Assembly (NCBI RefSeq): GCF_023195695.1 | Contig: NZ_JALPQG010000005.1 | Coordinates: 186,001 to 250,000 of the forward strand | Length of the DNA stretch: 64,000 nucleotides | Direction of reading: 5' to 3' | Origin: Aliiroseovarius sp. S1339 | GTDB taxonomy: Bacteria > Pseudomonadota > Alphaproteobacteria > Rhodobacterales > Rhodobacteraceae | Shown: piece after piece, positions 11,482-21,806 of the stretch | How positions within the stretch are numbered: the stretch's first letter is position 1 | Layout: each line of letters starts with the position of its first letter | The notes under the pieces: model-generated | The model's database searches: none | Seen by the model: the letters and a program-made list of their open reading frames with translations, nothing else | What the model was told of the DNA's origin: nothing | Position numbers and translations under genes: made by a program

Positions 11482-11760
11482 ATGAACAGCAGCTTCAGTC
11501 CAGACTACTCTGCTTTTGAAGGGAAGAACAACAGCCCGTCTTGGTCAGAAATTCCGGCCGAAGAACGGATCCAAGTGAATGGGCAGCGAAAGCTCGGATG
11601 CGCCTATAGCGAACACGCCCAGATATTGCTGCACGCGCACGCAGAACCTTTGGCACCGCATTCGCCTGTTGATTGCGAAGCGACAATCCCAACTATCTGG
11701 GTAATTGAGCGCAATTGTGATACAATAAATGTTCACATCGAAGATTGGGGGCTTCTATGA
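11482..11760 (+). CDS. Possible small ORF upstream of the M23-like gene
   Basis: A 92-codon reading frame starting MNSSFSPDYSAF and ending just where the next gene starts: its TGA (11758-11760) overlaps the ATG at 11757 in an ATGA junction. That junction is what coupled genes look like, but the ribosome site before 11482 is weak and the protein has no family I recognise. It fills most of the 292-base gap between the divergent nitrilase-type gene and the large secreted protein, a gap that must also hold their promoters. The frame could equally be open by chance. Confidence 0.25.
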   Translation: MNSSFSPDYSAFEGKNNSPSWSEIPAEERIQVNGQRKLGCAYSEHAQILLHAHAEPLAPHSPVDCEATIPTIWVIERNCDTINVHIEDWGLL

Positions 11761-14700
11761 AACAACGTCCCAAGATGACCACCGGGATGGCGTCGCTGCG
11801 GCATCTTGCGCTGCCCTTGGTCTGCCTGCTGCTCGCCCTGCCTGCCCATTCGCAGACCGTGACCGCCCCGGCCGGGTCGGGCATTGCCACGTCGACGATG
11901 CGAGTTCAGCCCCTTGATAACGCCCCCACGCCGTCCTTTATCGGCGGCTGGGAACCATTTGACGATGGCGTGTGGCTCAGCCTCGACCTCGACTTCACCA
12001 CGGGGAACGAGGACGTTGCGTTGGAAGAGGCCCGTGTCACTTACCGCGACGCAGGCGGCGCGGACGTCGCCTCGGCGACCGTGGGGTCACGCGATTTGTC
12101 CTTCGCAACACTCAGCCGCACAAACGCCACCTTGGGAACAGCCGTACCTGCAGCGTTTAACGATACCGGAGGGCGGCTTGACGACATGGGATCGTTCGGC
12201 TCGCAATGTATCCGCGATATCGAGATCGACTCGAACCAACTGCTCTATGCGGGCGGCACCGGAACCTCGTCACCGATATTTCCAGCCGTGGGCATATTCC
12301 CCAACGGATCGCTACTTGGCCGGTACGACGCTGCTGGCGGCAGAGACAACGGGTTCTCCGGCAACGGGTTGCTCTCCGTGCAAATCGACCATCCATTCAA
12401 CGAAGACGATGCAATCCGTCACGGAATCGCTGCCATCGCGACATCGCCTGTTGGCGACATTTGGACCGGCGGCGCCTCGTGGCTTGAAAACGTCCCGCAG
12501 GACGGTGAGGTCGACTCCTTCTGGACGCTGACCCGGATCGACGTGAACGGCGCGATAGATTTTCCTTTCGGGGTCAGGATCGTTGAACCTCAGACGGATG
12601 GCGGTGCCATTCGCGCCCTGGCCATAGACGACAGCTCGCGACCTGTCGCGGCTGGCTATATCCGCGTCGATGACCGGAACCGCGCGGCGCTCGCGACTTT
12701 CGGCCTTGGCGGCGATCTTGCCGCGGACTTCGGCCTGCGCGTCGCAAATTTTCTGCCGGCGGACACGGTTTCAACTTACACCGCGCTTGCCTATGACAGC
12801 ACTGACCGCCTTTACGCCACGGGTTGGTACGGCCCTCCGCAGGAGTTGGAGCCGGAACCCGGCCCACTGGAGGATCGCACATGGTTCGTCGCACGCTTTG
12901 CCGACGACGGCTCACTTGATGAGACGTTCGGAACCGACGGTCTGGTCGAGGTCGATTTCCTCGGGTTCGACAGGGCCTATCCGGGCGCGATGGTAATTGA
13001 CGACGAGGACCGGATCGTCACTGTCGGCAGCGTGTCGACGGGTGACGGCATCAACGCTCAGGCGGCATTCTCGCGATTGCTGCCATCGGGCGCGCCAGAC
13101 GATACGTTTCAGCCCCTATTCAGCGGCACTGGCCAGTTCGTCACCGATGCTGGCATTGGCGGCCTGGTCGGTGCGACGGATGTGGTCATTGACTCGCAGG
13201 ATCGCATCGTCGCGTCGCTGGCTACCGTGGACGCATTCGCAGCCATCCGGCTTGAAGGGGCGGACGGGGCTGCCGATGCAGCCTTTGGAGATGGCGGCGT
13301 TGTGGTCCATGCCCACCCCGACACACCTAACCAGGACGGAAGCTTCGCATCCTCCATAGCGGTCGCCTCGGGCAACCGTATCGTTCTCGGCGGTTGCGCT
13401 ACAGCGGATGATGACGAGCGCAATTTTGCCCTGATGCGCCTATTGGAGGACGGCAGTCTCGATTCCAATGCCAATCAGCTGCCCGCCAACACCCGCGTCA
13501 TCCTCGCCTTCCCGGATGAAGCATTGCCGGATGACGAACGGCAGATGCCTTTCACCGGCACCCCTCCCGCGACGGTTGATGTCGAATTGGATCTGCGAGA
13601 GATCGCGTCGGGCGATGTTTGGACCATCTCCTGGACCGACATTCCCGCGCCGAACTTGGTTGCGGTTCCTCTACCGGATCCACTGCAATCCTATATCTTT
13701 CCACTTGCTCCGACGCAGGTGGTTGTCCCCTTACCGGACGACGAAGCCTGCGCCCTCATCGACGATGACGACGTGGGCGACGACGAAACCGCACCGCCCG
13801 CCCCGGACCTATTCTATTACGTTTCCAACGGGCATGAGCTGCGCTATGGCGACATTGAAACCTCGCACCGTGCGCTGGTGCAGTCCCTCAACACGGCGTC
13901 CGCATCCAACGATCAGCGCCACGCCTACGATATTGTCGTGCGCGACCAAGACGGTGGCAGCAACGTCGGCCTCGACGCGGCGTGCAACCCGATCGCCACC
14001 AACACCAACGCGACCGCCTATATCTGGGGCCAGTCGGTCATTGCGGCGGCAGATGGGAACATCGTGACGCTGGATAGCAGCCAGCCCGAAAATCCATCCC
14101 CGGGCGTCCGCTTGGCCGGTGTGCCGCGCGGCGGCAACTCCGTCACCATTGACCATGGTAACGGCCAGTTCACCCGCTATTCGCACATGCAAGCCGGGTC
14201 GATCCCCAACAACCTCGCGGCTCTCAACAACCTGGGTATGTGCCCGGCCGGACAGGTCTGCACCGTCACGCAGGGCGATCTGCTGGGTGTTGTCGGCAAC
14301 TCGGGCAACAGCTCAGGGCCGCACCTGCACTTTGTTCTGATGGACGGCTCGAACGCCAATACCGACGAAGGTCGGCCGATCACTTTCTCGAACATCATGT
14401 TCGGGGACATGAACCAGACCAATGTGGCGATTCACACGCGCCAACTGATCAATAACGTCATGCCGATCCCTTCCATGATCGTACTTAACCCGCCCTCGCC
14501 CGCCGGTCTCATCGCCGAGATCGAGGACAACGACGCGGTTGAGGATCATCAAGCCCTGACCCCGCCGACGATCGTGCAGGGTGAAATCTCGGACAGCGAA
14601 AGCCCAACGCTGGCGGTGCGCGGCGACCCTGTGGAAGATATCTACCGGTTCGAAACGGACACCCGCGCGCAGGCCGTGATCCGCCTCACGCCGACATCGC

Positions 14701-15776
14701 GGAACGGCGATCTGAACGTCTACCTGCTAAATGACGGCCTTCTGATGCTGAACCCTGATGGCGCGGGCTGGGGGACAGGCAGCACCGAGGAAATCGTCAC
14801 AACCCTGGCGCCGGGCCGTTACTATGTCGCCGTCTCGGATGCCGATGACGGCAGCGGGGCGACCTACGACCTCGACATCGAACTCAAACCATTCGCTTGG
14901 CAATACTCGGCCAAGGTCGTCTGCGGCACCCAGACTGATGCAGACGATGGCCGTCTGACACCGGGTCGTTACGCCACCACGGTCAACATCCACAATCCGG
15001 GCGCGACGCCAGCGCTGATCCACAAGAAACTGGCGCTGGCCTATCCGCCAGCCGAACAGACACCGGGGCAGATCTTGGAAATCGGCGAAGACGACCTCGG
15101 CTACGATCAGGCGGTCAAGACCGACTGCGCCGATATCGATCGCAACGCCCTGTCGGAAACGACATTGGGCGGCGCAACCTACTACGAAGGCTTCGTTGTG
15201 GTCGAAAGCACCGAGCGTCTGGACGTCACCGTCGTCTATTCAACTGCCGCGCTGGACAACAGTGGCAACGTCGCTTCGCAAAGCTCCATCGATGTGGAAC
15301 AGATCACCGAGCGCGGTCTGGGTGTGGATCTGTCGGTCGACAAGACCGCACAAGACTTCGTGTTACGGATGGGCGCCAGAGAGCTTCACTTCATCCTTTA
15401 TACTGTCGAAATCGGCAATCTCGGCCCGGCGACGGCTACCGACGTTTATCTGGTGGACGAGATGTCTCTGGGCCTTCTAAACGCGGATGGCATTATTGGG
15501 CTGCTGCCCGCTCCGCTGGACTTGCCCGCGACCGGCGCTCTGCTGTCGATCAACTATCCGTCCTTGACCGAATCCGTGGCGGAGTTTGACGTTGGCAGCA
15601 TCGCCGCAGGAACCACCCGCACGATCAGGTTCTGGGGCGCGGCCGTCGCGGCCGGGGGCGAAGACGGCAGCCCGGCATTGGCGGTCGTCGAAAACCGCGC
15701 CACCATCCGCGCCGGCCCGGTCGAACTGCTGGAGGACGACAATACCGCAACCGTTAACACCCAGATCCTGCCATGA
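11757..15776 (+). CDS. Large secreted M23-peptidase-like multidomain protein
   Basis: 1339-aa exported protein. Residues 1-33 are a signal peptide (hydrophobic LALPLVCLLLALPAHSQ). About 250-580 hold repeats of the delta-60 type, with units like DRIVTVGS and RLLPSGAPDDTF. An M23 (lysostaphin-like) domain covers roughly 720-880: the zinc motifs are HAYD (His722, Asp725) and the pair His856/His858 in GPHLHF, with YSHM between them. A pre-peptidase C-terminal-type domain (EIEDNDAVEDHQAL onward, about 920-1040) and a DUF11-like repeat (about 1190-1339) follow. A GGGGG site sits 7 bases before the ATG; an in-frame TTG at 11745 is less likely. It may cleave peptidoglycan or only bind it or another surface polymer. 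Confidence 0.8.
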   Translation: MKQRPKMTTGMASLRHLALPLVCLLLALPAHSQTVTAPAGSGIATSTMRVQPLDNAPTPSFIGGWEPFDDGVWLSLDLDFTTGNEDVALEEARVTYRDAGGADVASATVGSRDLSFATLSRTNATLGTAVPAAFNDTGGRLDDMGSFGSQCIRDIEIDSNQLLYAGGTGTSSPIFPAVGIFPNGSLLGRYDAAGGRDNGFSGNGLLSVQIDHPFNEDDAIRHGIAAIATSPVGDIWTGGASWLENVPQDGEVDSFWTLTRIDVNGAIDFPFGVRIVEPQTDGGAIRALAIDDSSRPVAAGYIRVDDRNRAALATFGLGGDLAADFGLRVANFLPADTVSTYTALAYDSTDRLYATGWYGPPQELEPEPGPLEDRTWFVARFADDGSLDETFGTDGLVEVDFLGFDRAYPGAMVIDDEDRIVTVGSVSTGDGINAQAAFSRLLPSGAPDDTFQPLFSGTGQFVTDAGIGGLVGATDVVIDSQDRIVASLATVDAFAAIRLEGADGAADAAFGDGGVVVHAHPDTPNQDGSFASSIAVASGNRIVLGGCATADDDERNFALMRLLEDGSLDSNANQLPANTRVILAFPDEALPDDERQMPFTGTPPATVDVELDLREIASGDVWTISWTDIPAPNLVAVPLPDPLQSYIFPLAPTQVVVPLPDDEACALIDDDDVGDDETAPPAPDLFYYVSNGHELRYGDIETSHRALVQSLNTASASNDQRHAYDIVVRDQDGGSNVGLDAACNPIATNTNATAYIWGQSVIAAADGNIVTLDSSQPENPSPGVRLAGVPRGGNSVTIDHGNGQFTRYSHMQAGSIPNNLAALNNLGMCPAGQVCTVTQGDLLGVVGNSGNSSGPHLHFVLMDGSNANTDEGRPITFSNIMFGDMNQTNVAIHTRQLINNVMPIPSMIVLNPPSPAGLIAEIEDNDAVEDHQALTPPTIVQGEISDSESPTLAVRGDPVEDIYRFETDTRAQAVIRLTPTSRNGDLNVYLLNDGLLMLNPDGAGWGTGSTEEIVTTLAPGRYYVAVSDADDGSGATYDLDIELKPFAWQYSAKVVCGTQTDADDGRLTPGRYATTVNIHNPGATPALIHKKLALAYPPAEQTPGQILEIGEDDLGYDQAVKTDCADIDRNALSETTLGGATYYEGFVVVESTERLDVTVVYSTAALDNSGNVASQSSIDVEQITERGLGVDLSVDKTAQDFVLRMGARELHFILYTVEIGNLGPATATDVYLVDEMSLGLLNADGIIGLLPAPLDLPATGALLSINYPSLTESVAEFDVGSIAAGTTRTIRFWGAAVAAGGEDGSPALAVVENRATIRAGPVELLEDDNTATVNTQILP

Positions 15777-18263: not shown

Positions 18264-18356
18264 ATGGGAAAAATGCGTCTGACCATTTCGGATCAGCGTA
18301 AGCGGGGCGACAGGCAGGTCGCCAACCTACTGGGCCGGGATGGCCTTTTACCCTAA
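18264..18356 (+). CDS. Possible 30-aa ORF
   Basis: ATG with a good AAGGAG site (18252-18257), reading MGKMRLTISDQRKRGDRQVA and ten further residues. It overlaps by four bases the end of the 196-aa gene on the other strand. The protein is basic and has no family I know. The DNA also carries a hairpin (GGCGAC 18306-18311 and GTCGCC 18318-18323). It could be a tiny gene or a chance frame. Confidence 0.3.
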   Translation: MGKMRLTISDQRKRGDRQVANLLGRDGLLP

Positions 18357-18943
18357 CCCACCTCAGCGACCTGTTCGTCGTCGACCTGTGATTTCATCTC
18401 GAGCGGCAGGTCGATAGTGGGCAGCGTTTCTTTGAGTATCGTGACGCCTTCGACCTTGACGGTGACCGTGGGCTTGGCACGCCCTGCTGCGATGGCGACT
18501 ATTCGACGGTCGACAACCGTGATGATCAGCCCCTCAATCTTCAGATTGAACGCCACCGGAACCGGCAGTTTGCGGATTTTGACCAACTTGCCCAGTTCGA
18601 TCACGATGTTTGGGGTGAAACTGGCCTTAAGCGTGTGGCTGGCGATGGTAACATGGCGCGGCTTTCTATCCTCAGGCCCTTTGGCACCAATCAGGTCCGC
18701 GACCTGACGCAGGCCCTTCCACGCCTTCATCAACTCTTCCAGCGGTGAAATTGCCAGCGCATCATTGACCGCTTTCTCAAGCGCCACTTTCAAAGTTGAG
18801 CCGTCCGGGTCGATGGCTTTAAGGCTTACTCCGCCATCGCCTTTTGTCATCGCCAGACCCACCGCTTCGATGACCTCTTTCAGGCGCGCTTCGGGCAATT
18901 CGCTGGATAGTCCCTTTTGCTCTTCGGATGCTTCATTGTTCAT
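18353..18943 (-). CDS. Conserved-looking cytosolic protein, unknown
   Basis: 196-aa protein without signal peptide or membrane helix. The first 25 residues are acidic (NNEASEEQKGLSSELPE), followed by helices and then alternating beta-rich segments (KASFTPNIVIELGKLVKI, VAFNLKIEGLIITVVD). The ATG at 18943 has an AGGAG site and overlaps the end of the 887-aa gene by 11 bases, so the two are translationally coupled and probably form one system. The frame stays open upstream to 19306 but that part is antisense-type noise within the larger gene's coding region. No family recognised. Confidence 0.65.
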   Translation of the reverse strand: MNNEASEEQKGLSSELPEARLKEVIEAVGLAMTKGDGGVSLKAIDPDGSTLKVALEKAVNDALAISPLEELMKAWKGLRQVADLIGAKGPEDRKPRHVTIASHTLKASFTPNIVIELGKLVKIRKLPVPVAFNLKIEGLIITVVDRRIVAIAAGRAKPTVTVKVEGVTILKETLPTIDLPLEMKSQVDDEQVAEVG

Positions 18944-21596
18944 CGCGATGCTCCTTTTTTTCCGGTTCCATCTCAATCTCGATTTCTGGCGCCTCGTCCA
19001 GTTGGATGCGCAGCATAAGCGTGGGCGGCGAGGTCGGTTCGATCTCAAGTTTCGGATCGTGATCGGGTTCGGCAAATATCCTTGGGCGGGGTGGTGGCAC
19101 AGTCGGGTCAGAAGGGTTTTTTTGCGCGCGACCGCCGATCCGGGCGGCAAGATAGCCGACGGCGATCGCAGCAAGGATAAGCCCACCGATCCAAGCCCAA
19201 CTCGGGAGTTCGGGGCGCGGCGCAGCTGGTCGCAGCAGCGTGATTTGTGAGCGGGCGAGCGTTTCGCCCGCGACGTTCTGCGCCTCGACCACAACCAACC
19301 TGTCAAAGCCCGGCTCAGGCATTTTCACCTGTCCAAGCCAGTCGTCACCACCATAGCGGACACGTTCCAAAACTTGGCCGTTTGTGGCGTCTGAGACAAC
19401 GATCACAGCCGTTGCGGCGGGGTTGACAACTTCTACCGACAATCGCGTGCTCTGCGCGTCAATGGCGAAGCCGTCAGGCGACGTAACAAGCAGCGTGACG
19501 GGCGCGATAGGGGCCGGGCGGACCAAGGTGATTTGCGCAGGGGCGAAAGGCTGTCCGTCACGGCCAATCGCCACAATCTCGACCGTTCGCGTGCCACCCG
19601 GCTCTGGCATGTCAAGCTGTAGGCTGGCCCGCCCTTGCGCCAGAGCACCCTCACCAAGAATGGGGGCGTTCGGGTCATTATCGGCAGATCGGGCGACGAT
19701 GGCGTCGATCCAATCCGCACCCGCCGTGATCTCTGCCTGGACCGTCATGTCATCCTCGTTGGCCTCAAACAATCCCGTTGGTTGGACCTGCATGCGGACA
19801 GGCGGGCGTTCAATTCGCACCTCGTCCTCGGCAAGAGCTTTGCCGGTGCGATCGACGGCTTGCACCTGAAACCCAATGCTTTCACCCGGCGGCGGCAATT
19901 CATGCGTTGTTTCCCAAACCCTGTCACCAACGCGCGCGCGGGCCAGTTCTGCCATGTCTGGCCCGCCCCGAAGGATCAATTCGTCAGCCGCGCCGCGCTC
20001 CTCCATGACAACCTGCAAGCGCACGGTCGCAGCATCGACGATGTTTCCGGCGGGGCTTTCAAGGGTCAGGCGCGGCGGCGCAATGGGGGCCGGGCGGGTG
20101 ACTGTGACGGTCTGTTCGGCAAGCACATTCCCGCTTTGATCCAACGCGACAAAGGTCACGCGATGCGATGCGCCGGGGTCAGGCGAGCGCAGCGAAAGAA
20201 GCGTAGAGCCGCCGGAATATTGTTGGCCAATTGGATCTGCATTGGCGGGACGGGCTTCGATACGAACAACCTCTGATGCGCCGCGTGTGACCGAGACGGC
20301 GAAATCTGTCCGCACATCATTGGTTGTGACGATCCCCGAGGGGCGCACCAAAATCGCGGCAGGCGGGCGGATCAGCCGCAGTGTCGCAGTGTCCAACGCA
20401 TTGCCGTTTGGCCCAAGCGCCTGCACCTGATAGACCGCATCGCGACCGGGCAGTGGCATTGGTAGATCAAAGATCAGCGGCTGCCTGAGCCATGGTCGCG
20501 TTAGCGTGCCGACCCCCGGACCCGTGATGCGGATCGTTTCTGTAAGCCCCGGCTGACGCAGACTGATGCGGACATTTGCTTGCGGGCTGTCGACCTCAAT
20601 CGGGCCGGGGACGTCCAATACCACGGGTTGCGCGGCCAGGCAGGCGCGGCTTAGCTCTTCCCGCAGCGTTTCCCAGCGGATGCGGCCTTCATTGAAACTG
20701 GGCATCCTGTCGCGCAGATAACCCTCAATCGCCCTACAGGTGTTGGGGCCAAGCGCGCCATCGCTTCCGCCCGGCGAATTACCTACACAGGCAAGATTTT
20801 CCTGTACGTTCTTGACCAGCGCCTGACTTACAGCCTCGCGCGGGCCACACCACGGCAAAAGCCGCAGCTCAAACCGCGCCCGCGCCGAGAGGTTGGCATT
20901 GTTGGTCGCCACGATTGTTGCGATTTGGCTGTCGAAATCGCGCGGCAGATTGACGGTCGCGGAATAGGTCGACGCGCCTTGGGATGCCGACATTTGCACC
21001 CGTCCGCCATTCGCCATGACGACAAAGGCGGTGCGAATGCCGCTTTCGCCGTCGGTGATCTTTGCGCTCACTTTTATGGTGCGGCCGGGACCCTCAAAAA
21101 CCTGACGAAGCGGGGCGATTTCCGGGGGCGTTCGGTCGACAATGACATCGCCGTCGGGTTCTTCCTCATCTGGTTGGTTGGGCGTGGTGGTACCTGGCGA
21201 ACCGGGACCTTGACCGATCCTTCGGTCAAGTTGGGCGAGATCGAAGTCGGTTCCGATAAAGATATCACACGCGCCCGCTCTTAGCGCCGGAAAGACCTCC
21301 TGAAACGGGATCACTGCCGTGCGCAGGCGTTCTTCCCTGAGCTGCGCGACCAGCGGGCGGTTGGATGCACAAGTTTTAACCTTGGTGAGAAAGGCCCGCA
21401 CATCCCTTGGCTGGGTCAGCATGATCACCAGAAAAGCGCCTGCCATAAACCTGTTGGCATCGGCCACGTAAAGGCCAGTGTAGCCCGGAATCCGTTCGAC
21501 GCCGCGCGGAGCACTGGTTGACGTTTGCGGCTGAGCAAACCCAACCGGCAAAACCACCAGGCAAAATGCCAAAAACAGAGCCGAAAATGCACGCAT
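18933..21596 (-). CDS. Membrane-anchored repeat protein, unknown
   Basis: 887-aa protein: signal peptide (MRAFSALFLAFCLVVLPVGFAQ), a segment around 60-125 resembling a small binding-protein lobe (FPALRAGACDIFIGTDFD), an acidic linker, a beta-rich domain, a peptidoglycan-binding-like stretch (VKNVQENLACVGNSPGG to GPNTCRAIEGYL, about 261-294), then Ig-like repeats. Their boundaries carry an RP motif at 410, 501, 597, 693 and 789, a 91-96-residue period. One membrane helix (WAWIGGLILAAIAVGYLAARI, about 801-821) leads to an acidic, Pro-rich cytosolic tail. The ATG at 21596 has a GAGG site; an ATG at 21623 lacks one. It overlaps the 196-aa gene. Function unknown. Confidence 0.7.
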   Translation of the reverse strand: MRAFSALFLAFCLVVLPVGFAQPQTSTSAPRGVERIPGYTGLYVADANRFMAGAFLVIMLTQPRDVRAFLTKVKTCASNRPLVAQLREERLRTAVIPFQEVFPALRAGACDIFIGTDFDLAQLDRRIGQGPGSPGTTTPNQPDEEEPDGDVIVDRTPPEIAPLRQVFEGPGRTIKVSAKITDGESGIRTAFVVMANGGRVQMSASQGASTYSATVNLPRDFDSQIATIVATNNANLSARARFELRLLPWCGPREAVSQALVKNVQENLACVGNSPGGSDGALGPNTCRAIEGYLRDRMPSFNEGRIRWETLREELSRACLAAQPVVLDVPGPIEVDSPQANVRISLRQPGLTETIRITGPGVGTLTRPWLRQPLIFDLPMPLPGRDAVYQVQALGPNGNALDTATLRLIRPPAAILVRPSGIVTTNDVRTDFAVSVTRGASEVVRIEARPANADPIGQQYSGGSTLLSLRSPDPGASHRVTFVALDQSGNVLAEQTVTVTRPAPIAPPRLTLESPAGNIVDAATVRLQVVMEERGAADELILRGGPDMAELARARVGDRVWETTHELPPPGESIGFQVQAVDRTGKALAEDEVRIERPPVRMQVQPTGLFEANEDDMTVQAEITAGADWIDAIVARSADNDPNAPILGEGALAQGRASLQLDMPEPGGTRTVEIVAIGRDGQPFAPAQITLVRPAPIAPVTLLVTSPDGFAIDAQSTRLSVEVVNPAATAVIVVSDATNGQVLERVRYGGDDWLGQVKMPEPGFDRLVVVEAQNVAGETLARSQITLLRPAAPRPELPSWAWIGGLILAAIAVGYLAARIGGRAQKNPSDPTVPPPRPRIFAEPDHDPKLEIEPTSPPTLMLRIQLDEAPEIEIEMEPEKKEHRDEQ

Positions 21597-21806
21597 ATCA
21601 AATCGCCTCAGCGCGTCGCGCATAAAAAATAAAATCTATGGTAGTAAACATAACATAAAAAACCACACTTGTCCCACCGCGTCCGGAGTTGCATCACCCC
21701 GCTTCATGCCCGTAGCGACATCCGTCACATCAGGCTTACCTTCGAAATGGCCGTGTTAGTCATCAGTGGCCGGTTCGGGTTAGCTGTCACTCGCTGTGCT
21801 GCAGAC

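Follow-up and report, generated by a model that had tools for sequence, protein, structure and literature searches.

What is encoded where the gene for a large, membrane-anchored repeat protein runs into the gene for a small cytosolic one? The question arises in a 64,000-nucleotide stretch of DNA from Aliiroseovarius sp. S1339 (the window), for which an earlier note had described an unreported two-gene module and proposed that it senses or holds the cell envelope outside while acting through a partner inside. Both open reading frames (ORFs) are confirmed, with a large membrane-anchored product, a cytosolic product of 196 residues and an overlap of 11 bp. The span first given, 18353-21596, is too short for the large gene, whose first ATG lies at 21623. 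The idea of a receptor or holder is a plausible hypothesis in the light of the analysis presented here.

Architecture of the large protein

The large gene encodes a bitopic protein with an extended outer arm and a short inner tail:

18933..21623, minus strand: large gene, 896-aa bitopic membrane protein (ORF; homologues in genomes G007, G009 and G015)
21531..21623, minus strand: signal peptide, residues 1-31 (hydrophobic core 12-30, mean hydropathy 2.42; AQ at about residue 31)
21213..21488, minus strand: solute-binding-lobe-like segment, residues ~46-137 (C85, R101-T102 and ALRxGxC conserved in four relatives)
20859..21122, minus strand: first Ig-like beta domain, residues 168-255 (predicted strands)
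20631..20849, minus strand: peptidoglycan-binding-like three-helix domain, residues 259-331 (helices predicted at 267-279, 293-306 and 317-331)
19230..20621, minus strand: five Ig-like repeats, residues 335-798, each with RP as its last residues (RP positions; repeat z-scores; Foldseek)
19128..19202, minus strand: membrane helix, residues 808-832 (second hydrophobic helix of the large protein)
18936..19127, minus strand: cytosolic tail, residues 833-896 (predicted unstructured; aligns with the tails of relatives)

The signal peptide and single membrane helix proposed earlier are both found. The repeats also bear out their description, with RP motifs at residues 419, 510, 606, 702 and 798 (spacing 91, 96, 96 and 96); this motif is peculiar to the window protein. 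The five repeats are mutually related above chance (z 2.6-18.7), the best pairs being R2/R4 and R3/R5. Each is predicted to form an Ig-like beta unit in a large-protein model that is weak overall (pLDDT 49), and a Foldseek search with the repeat string of this low-confidence model finds tandem Ig/Fn3 proteins at E ~1e-13. Repeats 2-3 and 4-5 of the arm (19230-20621) resemble a block duplication, and the protein of the genus relatives is shorter (~654 aa).

The two remaining segments of the arm are likely peptidoglycan-binding-like and lobe-like, a grading based on sub-threshold matches, a profile match and the predicted helices. PG_binding_1 (PF01471) scores 15.3 bits in the window protein and 15.3-21.3 bits across this protein and its relatives, all under the Pfam cut-off of 23. 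A four-sequence profile of the segment matches the peptidoglycan-binding domain of the lytic transglycosylase SltB3 (5anz) at E 0.0025. The lobe-like segment of the window protein has no Pfam match; at the analogous N-terminal place in G020, SBP_bac_5 reaches E 3.6e-5, with a sub-threshold 23.5 bits against 32.4. Among window-type pairs, the large gene has a dN/dS of ~0.2, indicating purifying selection.

The overlapping gene and its product

The small gene begins 11 bp ahead of the end of the large ORF, and its ribosome-binding-site-like sequence lies inside that ORF:

18353..18943, minus strand: small gene, 196-aa cytosolic protein of an unclassified family (ORF; homologues)
18933..18943, minus strand: 11-bp overlap of the two genes (ORF ends; a 4-bp ATGA overlap in most relatives)
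18951..18955, minus strand: AGGAG, ribosome-binding-site-like, for the small gene, within the large ORF (sequence)
18689..18892, minus strand: helical half of the small protein, residues 18-85 (AlphaFold2, pLDDT ~50-85)
18425..18658, minus strand: beta-meander half of the small protein, residues 96-173 (AlphaFold2, seven strands, pLDDT ~66-85)

Searches of Pfam, NCBIfam, PHROGs, PADLOC and the PDB gave no match to the small protein. It belongs to an unclassified family, possibly with a new fold. Its AlphaFold2 model has an overall pLDDT of 65.6, and a Foldseek search with this moderate model returned nothing significant in the PDB and no confident structural neighbour. H103 and P111, both in the beta-meander half, are invariant in a 10-row alignment. 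Two candidate identities were rejected. COMMD and bacterial COMMD-like proteins appear in the Foldseek list and share a helical N half and a beta C half, but the match is poor (E 0.15, probability 0.08, TM ~0.14) and Pfam COMM_domain gives none at E 1. Levivirus maturation proteins, listed in the viral Foldseek search, are shape matches to a moderate model (TM ~0.2, rmsd mostly >20 A).

The small gene is under purifying selection, with a dN/dS of ~0.1 among window-type pairs. In the same genomes the small protein retains 79-84% identity, against 67-72% for the large one, and is thus the slower-evolving partner.

Relatives of the pair and exchange of the arm

Eleven pairs were found in total, their carriers ranging from marine bacteria to actinobacteria. 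The large gene precedes the small one in all of them, and the ORFs overlap in ten; in the remaining pair (G704) they lie 17 bp apart. Window-type pairs occur in three of 20 other Aliiroseovarius genomes sampled (G007, G009 and G015), with the same order and topology and a 4-bp overlap. Further relatives of the small protein come from five other lineages of Alphaproteobacteria, reached with a small-protein profile (G020, G061, G704, G549 and G394), and from two linear megaplasmids of Embleya (Actinomycetota), reached by tblastn with the G549 protein and again showing a 4-bp overlap. The G704 and window small proteins align at E 1e-9 in BLASTP. Every small-gene relative found immediately follows a gene that encodes a single-pass membrane protein with an ectodomain, which supports the earlier proposal of an undescribed two-gene module and shows the pairing to be conserved. 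A large homologue lacking both the helix and the small gene was not seen among 61 relatives; the other matches were short and confined to the peptidoglycan-binding domain.

From lineage to lineage one outer arm has been exchanged for another, and the inner partner has been retained. G020, also an Aliiroseovarius, and G704 carry CARDB arms (Pfam matches at E 1.5e-42 and 5.1e-21), G061, of the same family as the window genome, a Pro-rich arm, and G549 six PASTA repeats (E 7.5e-67) on a membrane protein without a kinase. The Embleya arm appears Ig/IPT-like by eye, and Pfam finds nothing specific in it. The arm of G394 combines lobe-like and peptidoglycan-binding-like segments; the frame of its gene is broken within a Pro-rich repeat (L033:8607-8700), perhaps by sequencing error, slippage or decay. 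The arm type is thus not fixed.

The tails offer a candidate docking site. That of the window protein (residues 828-896, 69 aa) is acidic, as the earlier note had stated, with a net charge of -6. Acidity is nevertheless not a family feature, since net charge among the relatives ranges from -6 to +6. A D-P-G-x-Q motif is common to the tails of G704, G549, G020 and Embleya above shuffled sequences (pair z 2.0-9.9), and such sharing among the CARDB/PASTA/Ig subgroups is as would be expected of a docking segment. The window tail scores z -0.4 to 1.3 against these tails and 2.1 against that of G394; within the window subgroup the tail is conserved in a form of its own that weakly resembles the G394 tail. 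The motif was rejected as universal, being significant outside the window subgroup only.

The strictness of the pairing, the gene overlap, the exchange of arms and the slow evolution of the partner together lead us to read the module as an exchangeable envelope arm and a cytosolic adaptor of its own that the arm recruits, with a probability of about one in two. The large protein would be exported through its signal peptide and kept in the inner membrane by its one helix, with the outer arm (Ig string, peptidoglycan-binding-like domain and lobe-like segment) binding the cell wall or a ligand or protein of the periplasm. The small protein would be made by coupled translation from the message of the large gene and recruited by the short inner tail, to serve this module alone as an adaptor, reporting on or organising whatever the arm binds. 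Tail binding and downstream contacts may fall to its helical and beta-meander halves, and evolution would have swapped the arm and kept the adaptor. Counting against this reading are the window tail, which lacks a significant D-P-G-x-Q, the sub-threshold scores of the peptidoglycan-binding-like and lobe-like segments, and the moderate model of the small protein.

The G549 partner adds a further element. Here the small-protein domain is fused to FHA (E 5.7e-15; L032:5887-6810), beside the six-PASTA membrane protein. FHA is a phosphothreonine-binding module, and this fusion places the small-protein family in the company of signalling or scaffold proteins. It also suggests regulated contacts, which weighs against a purely mechanical tether, with an arm that joins the inner membrane to the wall and a small protein that serves in the cytosol as anchor or stabiliser and takes no part in signalling. 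Ig strings, PASTA repeats and peptidoglycan-binding-like domains are typical parts for reach and wall binding, but the CARDB and lobe-like segments point to ligand binding, and the patchy presence, in five of 21 genus members, speaks against a general envelope tether. We regard this explanation as unlikely.

The pair is rare and patchy, occurring in at least five of 21 Aliiroseovarius genomes and at least four of 385 genomes of the class; these counts are lower bounds, as the genome search scored some candidates per genome only. A single-protein scan of genome contigs found none, and an alignment scan found one locus, itself in Aliiroseovarius sp. Z3. Searches of plasmids by tblastn, with the proteins of G009 and with the small proteins of G704 and Embleya, gave no further pairs. 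Patchy distribution is typical of accessory systems and, together with a small protein devoid of any recognised catalytic or interaction domain, would suit a cytosolic enzyme or effector that works independently, for instance as part of a defence or toxin-like system, and is simply co-expressed with the large protein. This is the least probable of the explanations considered, and we think it very unlikely: adjacency is strict in two phyla across exchanged arms, no match to PADLOC models of known anti-phage defence systems or to PHROGs was found, and tblastn against phages gave no match, the only mobile-element matches being the two Embleya megaplasmids.

The module with an exchangeable arm and a dedicated adaptor shares features with several known systems. 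Like PASTA-repeat Ser/Thr kinases (PrkC/PknB) and their FHA substrates, it has a single-pass protein with wall-binding repeats outside and, in one relative, FHA in the cytosolic partner. However, no large protein of the window or its relatives has a kinase match, the tail measures only ~54-69 aa, and the order is reversed, with the arm N-terminal and the tail C-terminal. FecR-type anti-sigma regulators with an overlapping sigma-factor gene likewise pair a bitopic envelope protein with a co-transcribed cytosolic partner, but their topology is opposite; the small protein and its relatives have no sigma factor match, and the small protein no DNA-binding match, in Pfam or NCBIfam. The arm is built of parts familiar from wall-binding Ig, CARDB and PASTA surface proteins, which to our knowledge usually lack a dedicated overlapping cytosolic gene.

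Association with a cytochrome-c cluster

Within the window the pair is isolated, flanked by ArsR/AHSA1 genes on one side and a GNAT gene on the other. Elsewhere in the window (11745-15776), a 1343-aa protein joins a DUF5122 beta-propeller match, an M23 peptidase, a PPC domain and a DUF11-like end, an unusual combination.

In G007, G009 and G015, the pair is divergent from, and ~345 bp away from, a conserved six-gene cluster encoding an 803-aa cytochrome c, a GMC oxidoreductase, a 147-aa protein with the motifs IPDG and RDEIR and no Pfam match, a 433-aa protein with no match, and a DyP-like and a catalase-like protein, the latter so named by eye only. The cluster loci are:

L014:10274-15013
L042:12139-15989
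L052:9417-18170 (window genome, contig C11)

In the distant G704, the CARDB-type pair ends a co-directional gene run that includes homologues of the cytochrome (29%, E 1e-54) and of the 147-aa protein (26%, E 1e-15), together with two RoxA-like cytochromes and a Tle1-like hydrolase. A related operon in other Alphaproteobacteria (L031:9073-15999; L041:635-3076; L063, L064 and L065) encodes an 813-aa cytochrome c, a 310-aa homologue of the 147-aa protein and two RoxA-like cytochromes. Its 559-aa protein is present in G704, G532 and G628, and the operon accompanies the pair in G704 only.

The pair is statistically tied to the cytochrome-c cluster, a link on which the earlier note is silent. Within Aliiroseovarius, where the cluster cytochrome occurs in eight of 21 genomes, the pair is found in five of these eight and in none of the 13 others (Fisher 0.0028, kinship ignored). 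Across the 385 genomes of the class, two of four pair carriers have the cytochrome, against five of 381 others (p 0.0017, kinship ignored). This link is the best lead to the function of the module. It also raises the possibility that the pair serves as an accessory to a periplasmic cluster for cytochrome-c oxidation: the arm would dock or position RoxA-like or di-haem cytochromes, with their partner enzymes, on the membrane or the wall, and the small protein would couple this to the cytosol. The adjacency in G007, G009 and G015, the G704 run and both tests point this way. We nonetheless find it rather doubtful: the tests ignore kinship, the class-level p rises to 0.046 once the window genome is left out, that genome carries its cluster on a contig other than the pair's, and the genes next to the pairs of G549, G394, G061 and Embleya are unrelated. 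The cytochrome also occurs without a detected pair in seven genomes (G006, G010, G012, G532, G628, G461 and G718), and no hidden pair was found near the clusters of G718, G532, G628 and G461.

A broader proposal, tentative but possible, is that the arm and its adaptor represent a kind of transmembrane device that has gone unrecognised and is present in two phyla or more. Its interchangeable, envelope-facing arms would feed a single conserved adaptor, possibly of a new fold, which in certain lineages would control or organise a pathway of cytochrome-c oxidation in the periplasm. No description of the domain combination or of the cytochrome cluster emerged from the literature searched, mostly non-subscription papers. 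The candidate pathway comprises RoxA-like cytochromes with GMC oxidoreductase, DyP-like and catalase-like genes. The module offers a defined, testable receptor-like device with a new cytosolic protein family and natural arm exchange across phyla, and would show how bacteria link envelope-facing domains and cytosol with neither kinase nor sigma factor.
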